Of a DNA stretch of 55,800 nucleotides, positions 43,079 to 49,351 are shown one piece after another. Each line of letters opens with the position of its first letter. The first letter of the stretch is position 1. The notes below the pieces were generated by a model. That model did not search any database. It saw nothing but the letters and a program-made list of their open reading frames with translations, and was not told where the DNA came from. A program made the translations under genes and the position numbers. The stretch is from Verrucomicrobia bacterium Ga0077533 (GTDB lineage: Bacteria > Verrucomicrobiota > Verrucomicrobiia > Opitutales > Opitutaceae). Where the stretch lies: assembly GCA_001464505.1 (NCBI GenBank), contig LNEH01000074.1, forward strand, positions 1 to 55,800, given 5' to 3'.

Positions 43079-45067
43079 TCAGGCTGTGGCCTCAGGCTTG
43101 GACTCCGCCGCCGGGACGACCTCCGGAGCTGGGGCGGCCGGTTCCGGCGATGCGGGCTCGGCAACAACCTCGGCCGGTTTGGCTTCGATCGCAGCAGGTG
43201 CCGGGGCCTCGGGAAAGTCGACCGGGTCGTGCTCTTCGTCGCCAGCCTCGGCTTTCTTCGCAGCCTGCGGAGCCATCGGCGGCGGGGCGAAGAGCTTGCC
43301 GTCGGAAAACTCGGTCACATAGCCCTCCATGACCAGCCAGCGGAGGTCGTTGCTCATCTTGCGGAGCTTTTCGGCCTGTTCGGGTGCCAGAGCCGCAAAC
43401 GGAGTCTGCGACGGCGTTGATCCCTCAGCCGGCTTGCCAGCCGGCTTGTCCGCCATAGCTGTTCCAGCGACGGCGGAAGGCTCGGCGGAGGCAGGGGCGG
43501 GTGGAGGAACCTCGATCGCGAGGAAACTCTTCGGGAGGTTTTTCACGTGCACCATCGGATTCTTCTCAATGAAATCGATGAGCGCGGAGATGGTCTCGGA
43601 GAACACTTGGCCCGGGACGCGGAAGCGGCGCTTGACGGCACAGACGTAGGAGACGCCGCGCGAGCCCTTCTTGAAGATGGTGAAGCCCTCGCGGCGCAGG
43701 CGGCCGCGGAGCGCATTGGCGGTGTCGAGCGGGAAACGGCGCTGGCGCTCCACGTGGCCCTCGAGGGCGCGGCGAATTTCGCCGGGCGGCAGTTTCTCCA
43801 GGAGCTTGCCGTGAAACCGGACATTTTCGACCGCGCGCACAACTTTGTCCCGCGCGTTGGCGAGCAGGTGCAGGCGGGCGTCCTCGATGTTGTCGAAGGT
43901 GAGCGGCGCGGGGGCGTCGGGGACCGGCGTGGTGGCGGCCGCCGCAGCGGCTTGTGGTTCGGTCGGCTTGCCCTCCGTAGCTTCAGCGGAGGAGGGCGCG
44001 GTCTCGGCAGAGACGGTCGGCGCCGCAACCTCCGTTGGCGGATGGGTGACGGGTTTGACCACCGGGGGCTTCCAGGTGTAGCGTGTCGCCTTCTTCATCT
44101 TTTCCATCCACGCCGCGATGACCTCGGGCTCGCGGACGGAGATGATGCTCTCGCGGAAACGCTCAAACGGCATGCGGCCGAGCTTGGCGGCGTGATGCTG
44201 CTGCAGGATCTGCTGGTAGCGATGGTGATTCGGCGGCCCGAGCAGCTCGCCGGTGATGCCGCATTTGTTGATGATCGGGAAATTGCCCTTCGGGGCTTCG
44301 ACCTCAACTTCCTGCATGTCGAAGAAAGCGCCGAGATTGTTGGTGAGCGCGTGCTGGATGGCGGCGTCCTCGGTGTCGAACGGGAGGTGGTCCGGCAGCG
44401 ACATGAACATCGGGTTGGGCTTGTTGGACCCGGGCTGTTTCGCCGGCGCGGCGCCCTCGGCAACCGGGGCCGGACGTTCGGGGCGTTCCGGGCGGGCCCG
44501 CTGGACCACGACGACAAAGCGGTCGTTCTTTTCCAACACGGCCTTGGTGATCTCGAACAACTGGTAGGTGCGGCACGAGGCGCGCACGGCTTTCACCAGG
44601 GCGGCGAAACCGGTGTCCTCGGGGTAGCAGGTAGCCACAAAATACGGGCTGACGTAGGGCGCGCGGTCAAACTGGTGGCCGCCTTCGCGCCGGTCGTGAC
44701 CTTCCCGACGCTCACCGCCCTGGAACTCGCGGCGCGGCCCGTCTTCGCGGCGCTCAAAACGGCGGCGCTCGCCACCTGGCGGCTGGCCTTCCCGGGCCGG
44801 AGCTCCGGGCGCGGGGCCCGGACCGCCCGGCGCAGGGCCGGCGGGCTTGCGGAAGACCCGGCGATCGCGCGCCGGCGCCCCGTGCCCGCCGCCGTCGTCG
44901 CGGCGGGGTGGCCGGTCGCCGCGGTCGTTGTCGCGATCGCGACGGCCGGGGGAGACCGGCTTCACCTCGGTCCATTGGGTGCCGAAGTTAAAGGTCTGCA
45001 ACTGGCTGAGGTCGATTTTATTCAACCCCTGCTCGTTGGGTTCGTTCGCAGGCTGGGAGTCGTCCAT
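43079..45067 (-). CDS. 662-aa protein with RG-rich N-terminus, unknown function
   Basis: No named family recognised. Architecture: a short acidic start (MDDSQPANEPNEQGLNKIDL), an Arg/Gly/Pro/Asp-rich disordered zone (about 40-140, many RR, RGDR and GGERR units) like RNA-binding tails, a folded domain starting PYVSPYFVATCYPEDTGFAALVKAVRAS, a second segment with PIINKCGITGELLGPPNHHRYQQ, an Ala/Pro linker, a further folded part (LLANARDKVVRAVENVRFHGKLLEKLPPGEIRRALEGHVERQRRF) and a Pro/Ala/Glu-rich tail. The linker includes SSAEATEGK, coded by a dispersed palindrome (43971-43997). A nucleic-acid role is plausible by composition, unproven. It is isolated, ending convergently with tsaE. Confidence 0.75.
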   Translation of the reverse strand: MDDSQPANEPNEQGLNKIDLSQLQTFNFGTQWTEVKPVSPGRRDRDNDRGDRPPRRDDGGGHGAPARDRRVFRKPAGPAPGGPGPAPGAPAREGQPPGGERRRFERREDGPRREFQGGERREGHDRREGGHQFDRAPYVSPYFVATCYPEDTGFAALVKAVRASCRTYQLFEITKAVLEKNDRFVVVVQRARPERPERPAPVAEGAAPAKQPGSNKPNPMFMSLPDHLPFDTEDAAIQHALTNNLGAFFDMQEVEVEAPKGNFPIINKCGITGELLGPPNHHRYQQILQQHHAAKLGRMPFERFRESIISVREPEVIAAWMEKMKKATRYTWKPPVVKPVTHPPTEVAAPTVSAETAPSSAEATEGKPTEPQAAAAAATTPVPDAPAPLTFDNIEDARLHLLANARDKVVRAVENVRFHGKLLEKLPPGEIRRALEGHVERQRRFPLDTANALRGRLRREGFTIFKKGSRGVSYVCAVKRRFRVPGQVFSETISALIDFIEKNPMVHVKNLPKSFLAIEVPPPAPASAEPSAVAGTAMADKPAGKPAEGSTPSQTPFAALAPEQAEKLRKMSNDLRWLVMEGYVTEFSDGKLFAPPPMAPQAAKKAEAGDEEHDPVDFPEAPAPAAIEAKPAEVVAEPASPEPAAPAPEVVPAAESKPEATA
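43971..43997. repeat. GTAGCTTCAGCGGA palindrome inside the 662-aa gene
   Basis: CCCTCCGTAGCTTCAGCGGA followed by GGAGGGC belongs to the GAAGCCTTGGCG family of palindromes seen next to both tRNA genes. In frame it adds SSAEATEG to the linker of the 662-residue protein. Confidence 0.55.
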
Positions 45068-45164
45068 GTAAGGGCGGAAAACGGGCGTGGTTACCCGGTA
45101 AGTCTCGGAGGATGGCTTGGTGTTCCGCTACGTCAGGTCGGACGCGCGGTAAAGTGGTAGTTTT

Positions 45165-45465: not shown

Positions 45466-45807
45466 ATGACTTACGTCTACCTCATCGAAAGCACCTTGCA
45501 GAGGCAGCAGCATTACGTGGGCGTCACTCCCGACCTGAAGCAGCGCTTGACCGATGACAACGATGGCAAGTCGCCGCACACCCGCAAATTCAGGCCGTGG
45601 AACCTGGTCGCCTACATTGGGTTTGCCGACGAACCGACGGCGCATGCTTTCGAAAAGTATCTCAAAAGCGGCTCGGGGAAGGCGTTTCTTCGGAAACGCT
45701 TCCTTCGCTCCAGCGGAGCTTTGGCTGGTAGGCCAGCTCCCGGTAAGCGAAGTTACGGCCGTGAGTGGTGGCGAGGGTATGTCGGGAATCCCGTCCAACG
45801 CATTTGA
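45466..45807 (+). CDS. GIY-YIG nuclease-superfamily protein
   Basis: A 113-residue single-domain UPF0213/YhbQ-like protein. The GIY-YIG core reads VYLIES ... HYVGVTPDLKQRL (a VYL/YVG variant), then HTRKFRPWNLVAYIGFADEPTAHAFEKYLKSGSGKAFLRKRF. The C-terminal residues from about 80 (SSGALAGRPAPGKRS) are coded by the repeat at 45702-45737, so the natural tail has been replaced or extended. It lies between tRNA-Leu and the serine acetyltransferase gene, framed by direct repeats. Possible role in DNA processing; not established. Confidence 0.85.
   Translation: MTYVYLIESTLQRQQHYVGVTPDLKQRLTDDNDGKSPHTRKFRPWNLVAYIGFADEPTAHAFEKYLKSGSGKAFLRKRFLRSSGALAGRPAPGKRSYGREWWRGYVGNPVQRI
45702..45737. repeat. CCTTCGCTCC repeat, copy 2 (in GIY-YIG 3-prime end)
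   Basis: CCTTCGCTCCAGCGGAGCTT then TGGCTGGTAGGCCAGC, nearly identical to 45339-45375 and in the same orientation. It supplies coding sequence for the GIY-YIG C-terminus. Confidence 0.7.
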
Positions 45808-45843: not shown

Positions 45844-46761
45844 ATGACCATGACCCCCGACGCCATCAAACAGGCCCTGTTGCAATCCTATGCCAGTGAC
45901 GGCGGCATCAACCATCTCGATGGCGTCAACCTGCCCTCGCAGGACAGTGTGGCCGAGCTGGCCCGCAACTTCATGCACGTGCTTTTCCCGGGTTATTTCG
46001 AGAACACGAGTCTCGCGAAGAGCGATGTGCCCGCCTGGCTCAATGGCATGCTGTCCAAAATCGACGCGCAACTCACCACCGAAGTCGAGAAGAGCCTGCT
46101 TTTCGCCAAGGATCCCGCCCCGGCGGCCAACGCGCGACGCATCACCACCGCGCTGCTGGCCAAACTGCCGGATATTCGCCGTGTCGTGCAGACCGACGTC
46201 AATGCCGCCTACACCGGCGACCCGGCGGCACGCTCCGTTGAGGAGATCATTCTCGCCTACCCCTGCGTGCTGGCCATCTCGCTCCAGCGCATCGCCCACG
46301 TCCTCTACGGGCTCGGGGTGCCCTTGCTGCCGCGCATGTTGACCGAATACGGCCACGAGCGCACGGGCGTTGATCTCCATCCGGGCGCGAAGATCGGCTC
46401 CCACTTCTTCATCGATCACTGCGTGGGCGTCGTCATCGGAGAGACCGCCGCGATCGGCAATCACGTCAAACTCTACCAAGGCGTCACGCTCGGCGCAAAG
46501 TCCTTCGAGGTCGATGGCGCGGGCAACCCGGTCAAGGGCGTCAAGCGCCACCCCGACATCGGCGACCACGTCACCATCTACGCCCACGCGACGATCCTCG
46601 GCGGCGAAACCCGCATTGGCGAACACACCGTCATAGGGGGCAACGTCTGGCTGCTCGAGTCTGTCGCCGCCCACAGCGTTGTTTATTTCAAGGGCGACGA
46701 CCTCGTCATCCGGCCGCGCCGCGCCCAGGAGACGGTCTTGGGAGGCGACTGGACAATTTGA
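45844..46761 (+). CDS. epsC: Serine O-acetyltransferase
   Basis: A 305-residue left-handed beta-helix acetyltransferase of the CysE/EpsC group. It makes O-acetylserine, the acceptor for sulfide in cysteine synthesis. Motifs: RIAHVLYGLGVPLLPRMLTEYGHERTGVDLHPGAKIGSHFFIDH, GVVIGETAAIGNHVKLYQGVTLGA, and hexapeptide repeats to GGNVWLLESV. An N-terminal helical domain of about 150 residues is typical of the EpsC form. It lies next to, and convergent with, the sulfate assimilation operon, which fits the pathway. Confidence 0.9.
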   Translation: MTMTPDAIKQALLQSYASDGGINHLDGVNLPSQDSVAELARNFMHVLFPGYFENTSLAKSDVPAWLNGMLSKIDAQLTTEVEKSLLFAKDPAPAANARRITTALLAKLPDIRRVVQTDVNAAYTGDPAARSVEEIILAYPCVLAISLQRIAHVLYGLGVPLLPRMLTEYGHERTGVDLHPGAKIGSHFFIDHCVGVVIGETAAIGNHVKLYQGVTLGAKSFEVDGAGNPVKGVKRHPDIGDHVTIYAHATILGGETRIGEHTVIGGNVWLLESVAAHSVVYFKGDDLVIRPRRAQETVLGGDWTI

Positions 46762-46804
46762 GCGGGCCGCGACGCGATCAGTCGCGCCGAGCAGCCCCGG
46801 GCGG

Positions 46805-47218
46805 TCAGATGTGATACATCTCGGCTTCGCGATGCACGGAAAGCGACTCCAGGGTGTAACTGCCGGCGCGCTCGGCCACAAGTTGGCGGAGCTCGGTCCA
46901 GACTTGGCGCATCCGGCGGCCGGAGCGACCGCCGTGGTTGCCACTCAGTTCGAGCAGTTCGCCCTCGGTGGCCTTGATGATGTCGCGGAGGGTGATGCGA
47001 TCAGGAGCCCGGGCGAGGAGGAAACCGCCTTGCACGCCGCGTTTGCTGACCACGAGCCCGCCGCTTTTCAACTCGCCGAGGAGCTGGGCGAGAAAGTTCG
47101 CCGGCACTTCCTCGATTTTTGCCAATTCCTCGATGCGGGCCAGCTCGCCGCGGCTGTGGCGCCGCGCGAGTTCGCAGAGTATCCGGCAGGCGTATTCGAG
47201 TTTGACGGTGATTTTCAA
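46805..47218 (-). CDS. Rrf2-family transcriptional regulator (CymR-like)
   Basis: A 137-residue winged-helix protein: MKITVKLEYACRILCELARRHSRGELARIEELAKIEEVPANFLAQLLGELKSGGLVVSKRGVQGGFLLAR is the Rrf2 DNA-binding domain. The three cysteines that bind an Fe-S cluster in IscR are absent (only C11 and C15 occur, at the N-terminus). This makes it more like CymR, which senses the cysteine synthase/O-acetylserine state. It follows the TauE gene on the minus strand at the end of the sulfate operon and opposite epsC, so a role in sulfur regulation is plausible. Confidence 0.88.
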   Translation of the reverse strand: MKITVKLEYACRILCELARRHSRGELARIEELAKIEEVPANFLAQLLGELKSGGLVVSKRGVQGGFLLARAPDRITLRDIIKATEGELLELSGNHGGRSGRRMRQVWTELRQLVAERAGSYTLESLSVHREAEMYHI

Positions 47219-47276
47219 GCCACCGCAGTCAGGCAGCCGAGCAGGCAGGCGGCAATGCTTTTGGCACGCTGGCGAC

Positions 47277-48017
47277 TCAGGTTAGCGCATGCCACAGGGT
47301 GCGCACACTGAGTGTGATCACCAGAGCACCGACCAGGACCATGAACGGCCGGCGCGGCACCCGGCCGCAGAGCCAGGCGCCCAGGGGCGCGGCGAGCAGC
47401 CCGCCCAGCGCCAGCGCCACCATGATTTTCCAGTAGCCCAGACCGAGAGTGGCCAGAAAGACCGCCGAGGAGGCCAGCGTCACGAAGAACTCCACGGCGT
47501 TCACACTGCCGATGGTCGCGCGCACGTCGTTGCCGCGGGCGAGCAAATTGGAGGTCACGATCGCGCCCCACCCACCGCCGCCGATGGCGTCGAGCAGCGC
47601 GCCGCAGAAAGCGAGGGGCGTGAGGTGCGTGGTGACCTCCCGGGGGACGAAATCACGAAATGCCTTGGCTATGATATAGAGGCCGAGCAGCAGCAGATAG
47701 CCTGCAATCCAAGGTTTGATGGCCTCGCCGGAGATGGCGGTGAGGACGTAGGCGCCGATGAGGGCGCCCACCACACCCGGCAGGAGCAGCCGGCGAAACA
47801 GGGTCTTGCTGATGTTGCCGAAGGCGCGGTGCGACAACGCGGACGCGCCGGTGGTGAAACACTCGGCGGCATGCACGGTGGCGCTGGCGGCGGCGGGTGG
47901 CACGCCCACACTCATCAACAGGCTCGAAGCGGTGATGCCGAATGCCATCCCCAACGCACCATCGACCACCTGTGCGAGAAATCCGGCGGCGAAATAATAC
48001 CACAATTCGGATGTCAT
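47277..48017 (-). CDS. TauE/SafE (TSUP) family sulfite exporter-like permease
   Basis: A 246-residue membrane protein with about eight helices. The duplicated TSUP motif is visible as FAAGFLAQVVDGALGMAFGITASSLLMSVGVPPAAASATVHAAE and, in the second half, LDAIGGGGWGAIVTSNLLARG. TSUP proteins move sulfite, sulfonates or other sulfur anions. The start overlaps the cysN stop by four bases, so it is a member of the sulfate operon and may import sulfate or export excess sulfite. Confidence 0.9.
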   Translation of the reverse strand: MTSELWYYFAAGFLAQVVDGALGMAFGITASSLLMSVGVPPAAASATVHAAECFTTGASALSHRAFGNISKTLFRRLLLPGVVGALIGAYVLTAISGEAIKPWIAGYLLLLGLYIIAKAFRDFVPREVTTHLTPLAFCGALLDAIGGGGWGAIVTSNLLARGNDVRATIGSVNAVEFFVTLASSAVFLATLGLGYWKIMVALALGGLLAAPLGAWLCGRVPRRPFMVLVGALVITLSVRTLWHALT

Positions 48018-49351
48018 ATGGTGTAGTCGGTGGGCTCGGAACAGAGAGTTTGGGTGGGCGGGTGCAGCATACCAGCCCCGACGGTGGCGTTGGTGCCGGG
48101 TTCAATCAAGAGAAAGGAGCCGGTCAGGCGGTTGGTGGCGTAGCCGTCAAAGAATACCGGGCGGGCGGTGCGCAACCGGATCTCGCCGAGGTCATTCAAG
48201 CCGAGTGCATCGGGCGCGATCCTGGTCTCGAGTGAAGCGATGTCGAGCCGGTGCTCGATCTCGGTGACGACCGCCGGCACCGTATTGGTGGTATGCTTAA
48301 ACAGGAGTTTGTGGCCGCGCCGCAGCGGGCGCGGATGCATCCAGCAGATCCGGGCATGCAGATCGGTGCCGCCACCGGGTAGATTCTCCAGACCCACGAG
48401 CATGCTGCCGCGGCTGATGTCGATGTCGTGTTCCAACCTCAGGGTGACGGATTGGGGGCAGAACGCTTCCTCCACCGGGCCGTCAAAAGTATGGATCTCC
48501 TTGACCCGTGTCCGCAGTCCGCCCGGCAGGGCGACGACCGCCTGGCCCCGGCGCACGATGCCGCCCGCGATCTGCCCGCTGAATCCGCGGAAGTCGTGGT
48601 GTCGCGCGTCGCCTGGCTGGTTGGGCCGGTTGACCCATTGCACGGGCAGCCGGAAATCCTGTAGGTTCCAATCGCTGCCAATGTGGACTTGCTCGAGATG
48701 CCCCAGGAGCGTCGGACCCGCATACCACGCTGTATGAGGCGAGCGTTCGACGACATTGTCGCCGTTCAACGCGCTGAGCGGTATGAACTGCACATCCTTC
48801 ATGTCGAGCCGCGGCAGAAACGCCTCGAATTGCGCCCGGATTTCCAGGAAGCGCTCCTCGCTCCAGCCGACCAGATCCATCTTGTTCACGGCCACCACGA
48901 GGTGCGGGATGCGCAGCAGCGCGGCGATGGCGGTGTGGCGGCGGCTTTGCTCGATCACCCCGGTGCGCGCGTCAACGAGGACGATGGCGAGGTTGGCCAG
49001 GCTCGCGCCGGTCACCATGTTGCGCGTGTATTGGACGTGCCCGGGAGTGTCGGCGATGATGAACTTCCGGCGGGGGGTGGCGAAGTAGCGGTAGGCGACG
49101 TCGATCGTGATGCCCTGTTCACGTTCGGCCCGCAGGCCGTCGGTGAGGTTGGCCAGGTTGATCCGGCCGCCGCCGGACAGGTCGGCCGAACGCTCGAGCG
49201 CCTCCAGTTGATCCTCCATGAGCGACTTCGTGTCGTAGAGCAGCCGGCCGATGAGCGTGGACTTGCCGTCGTCGACGCTGCCGCACGTGTTAAAACGCAG
49301 GATGTCGGCCACCGGCTGCGCGGACAGGGGCATGATCATGGCGTGCTGCAT
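48014..49351 (-). CDS. cysN: Sulfate adenylyltransferase large subunit (GTPase)
   Basis: A 445-residue translation-factor-like GTPase. P-loop GSVDDGKST (24-32), effector region DGLRAEREQGITIDVAYRYF, G3 DTPGHVQYTRNM and G4 NKMDL. CysN drives APS formation by CysD through GTP hydrolysis. No fused CysC kinase domain follows. The start is 7 nt after the cysD stop, and the stop overlaps the TauE gene. Confidence 0.95.
   Translation of the reverse strand: MQHAMIMPLSAQPVADILRFNTCGSVDDGKSTLIGRLLYDTKSLMEDQLEALERSADLSGGGRINLANLTDGLRAEREQGITIDVAYRYFATPRRKFIIADTPGHVQYTRNMVTGASLANLAIVLVDARTGVIEQSRRHTAIAALLRIPHLVVAVNKMDLVGWSEERFLEIRAQFEAFLPRLDMKDVQFIPLSALNGDNVVERSPHTAWYAGPTLLGHLEQVHIGSDWNLQDFRLPVQWVNRPNQPGDARHHDFRGFSGQIAGGIVRRGQAVVALPGGLRTRVKEIHTFDGPVEEAFCPQSVTLRLEHDIDISRGSMLVGLENLPGGGTDLHARICWMHPRPLRRGHKLLFKHTTNTVPAVVTEIEHRLDIASLETRIAPDALGLNDLGEIRLRTARPVFFDGYATNRLTGSFLLIEPGTNATVGAGMLHPPTQTLCSEPTDYTI

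Follow-up and report, generated by a model that had tools for sequence, protein, structure and literature searches.

A widely conserved Verrucomicrobiota protein family with a finger-like module, probably metal-free in Opitutales, and predicted tandem winged helices

The gene considered here raises a simple question: what is the role of a 662-residue protein that is retained by many Verrucomicrobiota as a single copy and matches no named family? The window, by which we mean the whole 55,800-nucleotide stretch of DNA that was analysed, carries this gene on its minus strand, and a preliminary description made from the letters alone had proposed a lineage-specific RNA-binding or ribosome-associated factor. 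That reading is partly supported by the analysis presented here, which combines family searches, alignments, structure models and genomic comparisons.

The gene, its surroundings and its distribution

43079–45067, minus strand: whole gene, 662 aa (ORF call; codon-position differences; single copy in its own genome)

The 662-codon ORF starts with an ATG at 45067, ends with a stop codon at 43079–43081, and is overlapped by an opposing plus-strand ORF of 537 aa (43547–45160). A same-genus homologue of 626 aa shares 83% identity across residues 1–662 of the window protein, and among the 440 core codons compared between the two genes, differences number 40 at first, 17 at second and 137 at third positions. 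Because differences pile up at third codon positions, the minus-strand frame is the one under selection, and the 662-aa ORF is a genuine gene despite the overlap; the ORF call, the homologue and the codon positions all confirm the 662-residue protein named in the preliminary description. Codon bias of the gene lies mildly above background, exceeding that of 56 of 67, 44 of 64 and 42 of 70 ORFs in three genomes, and below that of ribosomal-protein ORFs in all three, in a test based on crude ORF picking and a ribosomal reference of 10–16 ORFs.

On its 3' side the gene is met by two convergent neighbours, tsaE and a thiL-like gene with an AIRS domain, and a tRNA-Leu(gag) gene is located 185 bp upstream on the opposite strand, an arrangement of neighbours from which we conclude that the studied gene stands alone. 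Of 29 loci scanned, 15, every one from Opitutales, have a divergent tRNA-Leu gene no more than about 0.3 kb away. Across 70 loci, thiL-like genes recur in 28 and tsaE in 27; within the 40 loci L118–L157, these two neighbours were seen only in L156, and no neighbour cluster was common to more than 5 loci, so that no conserved operon partner emerged there. Ten neighbours drawn from deeper and order-level loci were scanned against Pfam, yielding no match for 3 and TPR, ferritin, YjgF and other families without a theme for the rest. An assignment of function from gene neighbourhood was rejected on these results. Among RNA elements close to the gene only the tRNA was found, a promoter scan of the region gave nothing, and terminator-like sites did not exceed those in shuffled sequences.

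Several other features of these genomes deserve mention in their own right. Just downstream of tRNA-Leu(gag), and divergent from the studied gene, the window encodes a small GIY-YIG domain protein (45466–45807, plus strand), and the interval 45844–49351 contains a hexapeptide-repeat transferase, an Rrf2 regulator, a TauE/SafE exporter and an EF-Tu-type GTPase. The latter group resembles a gene set for sulfate assimilation and cysteine, within which CysE and CysN are names that we assume. Elsewhere in the window's own genome (G000:C140:20411-20607), the N-terminal domain of ribosomal protein L2 is matched in two overlapping pieces, which suggests a frameshift in the assembly. Finally, a 595-aa protein with no Pfam family at E≤0.001 is encoded just upstream of, and divergent from, the studied gene's homologue at L128 (L128:3841-5625); relatives of it were found in 5 of the 70 loci compared, namely L128 and four other deep loci.

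Whole-protein matches, nearly always one per genome, were found in 56 of 61 genomes of the family Opitutaceae, 75 of 87 genomes of the order Opitutales (including 11 of the 13 small genomes of 0.8–1.1 Mb in the order sample) and 71 of 93 genomes at class level. At phylum level, a profile of domain D1 (aa 137–332, described below) built from 28 order rows matched 118 of 194 genomes, and one built from 48 diverse rows matched 119 of the same 194, a count that includes one weak match in G262 (48 residues, E 2.7e-4). The latter profile gave one match per genome except for a split match in G304. The 75 genomes of the 194 that lack a match to the D1 profile, among which the rows listed include groups f60, f65, f35 and f40, indicate that the protein is dispensable in some lineages. 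In one genome of the same family, the single-contig G049, neither TsaE nor the studied gene was found, though the two are usual neighbours in the family; since TsaE is missing as well, the absence of the gene there may be a data gap.

A search of genome contigs with the window protein returned 31 loci, all titled Verrucomicrobiota (Opitutaceae and others), and no relative turned up when plasmid and phage collections were queried with one relative or when viral contigs were queried with a profile. The HMM search across Verrucomicrobiota that the preliminary description had called for thus located the family in 119 of 194 genomes, and its claim of lineage specificity is borne out as far as these searches reach. 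No published description of the protein was found in open-access literature. As far as our searches show, this is an undescribed, widely conserved family that presents known fold elements in a new combination. A single-copy protein kept in so many lineages, 11 of the 13 small genomes of the order sample among them, probably belongs to core cell biology, although the Pfam, NCBIfam, PHROGs and PADLOC scans put no family name to it, and it offers a concrete entry to the peculiarities of information processing in Verrucomicrobiota. A TraDIS study of Verrucomicrobium spinosum (PMC12283558) counts 644 genes as essential and lists 100 essential proteins whose function is unknown, and the full data set of that study may already contain a key fact on an orthologue, if there is one.

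Domain architecture of the family

44972–45016, minus strand: family-specific N-terminal peptide, aa 18–32, a probable docking peptide (pattern search, alignment)
44660–44965, minus strand: arginine-rich mixed-charge region, aa 35–136, taken as disordered and outside the structure models (composition)
44072–44659, minus strand: domain D1, aa 137–332, the most conserved part of the family (alignments, profiles, structure models)
44336–44410, minus strand: C2H2-finger-like beta-beta-alpha module, aa 220–244 (degenerate ligands S223, D226, H239, N244)
44183–44275, minus strand: second beta-beta-alpha module, aa 265–295 (alignment, model)
43640–43888, minus strand: predicted winged helix 1 (WH1), aa 394–476, basic (assigned from model topology only)
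43274–43597, minus strand: predicted winged helix 2 (WH2), aa 491–598, mostly acidic in the family (model, Foldseek, VIA)
43082–43261, minus strand: Ala/Pro/Glu-rich acidic tail, aa 603–662, net charge −10 (composition)

Searches against known families placed the protein in none. The window protein matched no Pfam family at E≤10 and gave only noise against NCBIfam; 28 order-level members searched singly against Pfam gave scattered single matches, and 16 diverse members gave several C2H2 models (best E 0.0091), each in 1–2 members. The family scans contained no match to an enzyme family or to an RNA-specific domain, the PHROGs and PADLOC scans gave nothing convincing, and profile searches of PDB sequences identified no family for the order-level D1 or for the C-terminal half. 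Matches to NCBIfam TraF-like (E 0.078) and MazG (0.025) models, to PADLOC PDC-S27 (4.4e-4, across WH2 of one relative) and to a PHROG MarR model (0.016) were treated as generic or due to chance. In short, profile searches did not assign the protein to a characterised family devoid of a nucleic-acid role, the outcome by which the preliminary description proposed to be judged.

At the N-terminus, a short peptide takes the general form LxLxFxPxWAR, in which the window protein has T instead of P; Opitutales have LDLSxLxxLSFGPxW, and the deeper branches LxLNFVPxWARxPP. With a loose pattern, the peptide was located in 54 of 56 homologues picked, a count that is somewhat circular because the same pattern helped to choose start codons. 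Among 42 aligned sequences from the 54 pattern-positive proteins, the W is invariant and the P is present in at least 90%. No second copy of the peptide was detected at E<0.1 in 7 genomes. Conservation of this kind implies a partner.

The region that follows (aa 35–136) is 23.5% R and 19.6% G in the window protein and contains many acidic residues alongside arginine, with a DRR at aa 68–70 that is invariant in a 28-row alignment. Arginine is preferred over lysine: in 108 of 110 proteins, R/(R+K) in this region exceeds the downstream value (median 0.91 vs 0.55). The set omits 10 loci that are duplicates or fragments and 7 in which the limits of the region could not be set. The preference extends beyond GC content, since 13 low-GC loci show the same excess (0.75 vs 0.46 downstream). 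In the 110 relatives, RG/GR dipeptides fall below shuffled expectation (478 vs 781) and RGG lies slightly above it (109 vs 86); the region in the window protein itself contains 0 RGG and 2 RG/GR dipeptides. This is a region of the R-D/E-R-R type and not an RGG box. The ‘RG-rich tail’ of the preliminary description is therefore apt for composition and fails as an RGG box; it is located at the N-terminus.

An AlphaFold2 model of aa 137–620, computed from 99 aligned rows, has a mean pLDDT of 87.4 and a pTM of 0.76, with ordered blocks mostly at 93–98, and D1 of the relative L130 modelled alone reaches a pLDDT of 93.4 and a pTM of 0.68. Structure prediction, which had been suggested as a check, thus gave confident predictions for both D1 and a tandem winged-helix half. 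D1 is modelled as a beta-alpha-beta-alpha-beta unit followed by a beta-beta-alpha module (aa 220–243), strands and a helix (aa 266–295), and two more helices. The stretches quoted in the preliminary description are all present, and YFVATCYPEDTGF and INKCGITGELLGPPNHHRYQQ, which it had assigned to separate elements, are parts of this one domain and not two.

The centre of D1 resembles C2H2 fingers. Foldseek returned 159 matches to the D1 model at E≤10, and C2H2 fingers make up 47 of the 50 matches listed, among them 1kls (probability 0.90, rmsd 1.1 over 26); no match reached E≤0.001 for either the D1 model or the winged-helix model. A diverse-row D1 profile matched 41 of all PDB sequences at E≤10, of which 40, labelled as zinc-finger proteins by name or common knowledge, overlap the finger columns, the remaining one being FlhB. 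Six of these sequences score better than E 0.01 (6.1e-6 at best), but they do so only by adding up repeated weak matches; individually passing stretches begin at E 0.056. VIA gave a best Z of 3.5 for D1, so that D1 as a whole is without a recognised counterpart among the chains compared. Additionally, the D1 finger helix (aa 220–270) and the start of the WH1 half (aa 390–440) can be aligned by hhalign, a weak match (probability 9.8%, E 0.0033) whose score of 24.9 compares with at most 19.5 in 60 column-shuffled controls; this similarity is a lead to a possible old internal duplication.

In the C-terminal half, the model places three helices and a beta wing twice, at model residues 258–340 and 355–462, the second unit (WH2) being split by a low-confidence loop at about aa 517–561. 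What had been described as a C-terminal helical part comes out in the model as two winged helices. Of the two ‘unfamiliar folded segments’ noted at the outset, unfamiliarity holds for D1 as a whole, which has no convincing PDB match, and does not extend to its C2H2-like centre or to the tandem winged helices. VIA relates WH2 to MarR/BlaI/MecI with Z 8.1–8.4 over 66–71 residues (within model residues 342–462), although a Z of about 8 may mean a common arrangement only, and Foldseek matches to the C-terminal half are weak: ESCRT-II at E 0.22, MukE from 0.28, a Wadjet JetABC chain at 1.4 and Nse/ScpAB chains at 4–6.5. Net charge differs among the domains: 97 of 99 rows have a positive WH1 (median +9 in Opitutales) and 1 of 99 has a positive WH2 (medians by group −4 to −5), and D1 is close to neutral (group medians −1 to +2).

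Metal-site states across the family

The 99-row alignment, prepared from 105 rows with 7 loci (duplicates, fragments) left out beforehand, comprises 25 deep rows, 13 class-level rows and 61 Opitutales rows, the window protein included. A full CxxC-x(10-15)-H-x(3-6)-H pattern is present in 22 of the 99, distributed as 21 of 25 deep, 1 of 13 class-level and 0 of 61 Opitutales rows, and the ligand spacing in deep rows is CX2C-X12-HX4H. CxxD, in which the first cysteine is retained, occurs in 5 class-level and 2 Opitutales rows, and xxxD in 5 class-level and 54 Opitutales rows. At the two cysteine positions, Opitutales have S in 57 of 61 and D in 56 of 61; H239 is retained in 90 of the 99 rows and the last H in 77.

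On a tree calculated without the finger columns for 58 of the 99 rows (20 of the 61 Opitutales and all 38 others), the four metal-site states require 12 changes vs 29.0 in shuffles, and 25 rows, 21 of them CxxC, form one supported group, with the 20 Opitutales rows forming another. From this tree, which is midpoint-rooted, has 20 weak inner branches among 55, and places the outlying CxxC row L155 on a long branch, we infer that the direction of change was loss, not gain, of metal ligands. In deep branches, the ligand pattern and the fold matches together point to a beta-beta-alpha C2H2-type finger. Three of the four ligands are gone from the window protein, whose module is a relative of the finger, not a canonical finger. 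The degenerate ligands and the precedent of Ros/MucR, discussed below, suggest that this module is finger-derived and probably metal-free.

The second beta-beta-alpha module, with C269, P278, N280 and H282, may once have had a metal site too. Conserved positions in this part of D1 are G261 (99 of 99 rows), C269 (95), P278 (98), N280 (97) and H282 (98). A cysteine at position 265 is confined to deep rows, 19 of the 25, and all members of a C265-x3-C269-x12-H282-x9-H292 set occur together in 9 of those 25 and in none of the 74 others; the window protein, with I at position 265, does not have this second set of zinc ligands.

One speculative scenario, which we regard as conceivable and put forward tentatively, would join these patterns: the family may represent a phylum-level chromosomal (or ribosomal) architectural factor in which a classical C2H2 finger arose or became fixed early, and in which the metal was afterwards lost in steps (CxxC, CxxD, SxxD) with the fold kept, independently of Ros/MucR, and in which the N-terminal peptide would dock to a core machine. 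If true, the family would constitute a natural series of a C2H2 finger turning metal-free.

Proposed function and relation to known systems

We propose, with moderate confidence, that the protein may act as a single-copy, housekeeping-type nucleic-acid-binding factor, with DNA a somewhat likelier target than RNA or ribosomes. Deep conservation, the finger matches of D1, the WH2 fold, the basic WH1 and the arginine-preferring N-terminal region favour a nucleic-acid reading; counting against it are the 75 genomes without a match, the mild codon bias, the weak E-values, the three lost ligands and the missing operon partner. The charge split between WH1 and WH2 suggests a likely division of roles. 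WH1, through a basic helix and wing, and the arginine-rich region would grip nucleic acid, more likely double-stranded DNA (in the nucleoid or in transcription) than RNA; D1 would set the geometry or recognise the target, with the help of zinc in deep branches and probably without metal in Opitutales; and the acidic WH2 together with the N-terminal peptide would dock a protein partner. Our leaning toward DNA stems from the fact that DNA is the most frequent ligand of winged helices and C2H2 fingers, both of which can also serve protein contacts.

The strongest competitor, possible if doubtful in our estimation, is the RNA-binding or ribosome-associated factor of the preliminary description, in which the arginine-rich region and WH1 would bind rRNA or mRNA and D1 would recognise structured RNA. 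The preference for arginine over lysine fits such a role, as do, weakly, the tRNA-Leu (15 of 29 loci) and tsaE neighbours in Opitutales, an adjacency that carries little weight because these genes are not co-transcribed. In addition, D1 weakly matches small C2H2 proteins with ribosome-style chain names in the PDB (6skg_Bo, 9sra_Bk and 9qf4_Bk, E 0.1–1.1), entries that we take to be archaeal ribosomes. Against this stand the family scans, which found no RNA-specific domain, the N-terminal region, which is not rich in RG dipeptides (although RGG is slightly above expectation), and codon bias that stays under the level of ribosomal-protein ORFs in each of the three genomes. Of the earlier proposal, then, binding to nucleic acid is plausible from the predicted folds, the basic WH1 and the arginine preference, and nothing favours its RNA or ribosome specificity over DNA.

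A role confined to protein contacts appears unlikely. The winged helices and D1 would then be interaction modules of an adaptor or scaffold, and the N-terminal region a solubility or condensate tail, which is consistent with the rarely positive WH2, the many acidic residues beside arginine, the partner implied by the N-terminal peptide, and the presence of ESCRT-II winged helices, which are protein-interaction modules, among the top Foldseek matches. The basic character of WH1 in 97 of 99 rows argues against this role.

Very improbable is membership of an SMC complex as a KITE-type (kleisin-interacting tandem winged-helix) subunit. Foldseek lists MukE, Wadjet JetABC, ScpAB and Nse1-Nse3-Nse4 chains (E 0.28–6.5), VIA relates MukE to the C-terminal half at Z about 7, and ScpB, present in 107 of the 194 genomes, is found together with the family in 101 (ScpB only in 6, the family only in 18, neither in 69). 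Yet those 101 of the 119 family-carrying genomes already possess a ScpB, hhalign of the family against 16 ScpB proteins (16 rows out of 20 regions fetched) gives a probability of 0.5% and E 0.12, and 17 of the 18 family-only genomes belong to genus g96, where the protein is present in 17 of 17 genomes and neither ScpA nor ScpB is matched in any of them. An obligate Smc-ScpAB subunit is excluded for these 17 genomes by the missing ScpA and ScpB and by the failed profile comparison. As an observation in its own right, the absence of ScpA and ScpB matches from all 17 sampled g96 genomes (e.g. G298) raises the possibility that this genus has lost or replaced Smc-ScpAB.

Least probable of all is an enzymatic D1 in which C269, N280 and H282 would make up an HNH- or treble-clef-like site for catalysis or metal: the near-invariant G261, C269, P278, N280 and H282 (95–99 of 99 rows) and a weak VIA match of model residues 106–159 to an IscB-entry chain speak for it, but that match (Z 3.3) lies within noise, the near-invariant potential metal ligands beyond deep rows are C269 and H282 only, and no enzyme family was matched.

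Compared with known systems, our preferred reading of a nucleic-acid-binding factor combines familiar elements in an unfamiliar arrangement. RGG-box RNA-binding proteins differ in the very motif that defines them, RGG being missing from the arginine-rich region of the window protein. The family resembles, by description only, the signature proteins of the PVC superphylum in being lineage-restricted and of unknown function; the literature describes a small PVC signature protein that also occurs in Chlamydiae and Planctomycetes (PMC3444138) and Minf_1886, a Methylacidiphilum protein that also occurs in Planctomycetes (PMC2474590). Like KITE proteins (ScpB, MukE, Nse1/Nse3), it is predicted to carry tandem winged helices, but it has no profile similarity to ScpB and occurs in g96 without detectable ScpA and ScpB. 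The likeness of WH2 to MarR/BlaI/MecI is one of fold and is generic, and WH2 differs in being mostly acidic, split here by a long loop and part of a multi-domain protein. Classical C2H2 fingers (CTCF, ZFY, PRDM9, Kaiso) have the same beta-beta-alpha module and ligand spacing, whereas the family has a single, domain-embedded bacterial module whose metal site is lost in most rows examined.

The closest parallel is Ros/MucR, likewise a bacterial C2H2-type finger with a similar ligand series. Published work on Ros homologues describes a progression from CysCysHisHis to CysAspHisHis and on to no metal, with folding and DNA binding kept (PMC9779718, PMC5745721). Pfam ROS_MUCR gave no match for the window protein (E≤10) or among the families listed for the 28 and 16 members (E≤1), in searches whose HMMER filters may drop very weak matches. 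The published Ros fold is beta-beta-beta-alpha-alpha, whereas the family module is beta-beta-alpha, is embedded in a larger domain followed by tandem winged helices, and has CX2C-X12-HX4H spacing in deep rows. The family may provide a second bacterial example of a C2H2-type module that has decayed from a metal-binding to a metal-free state.
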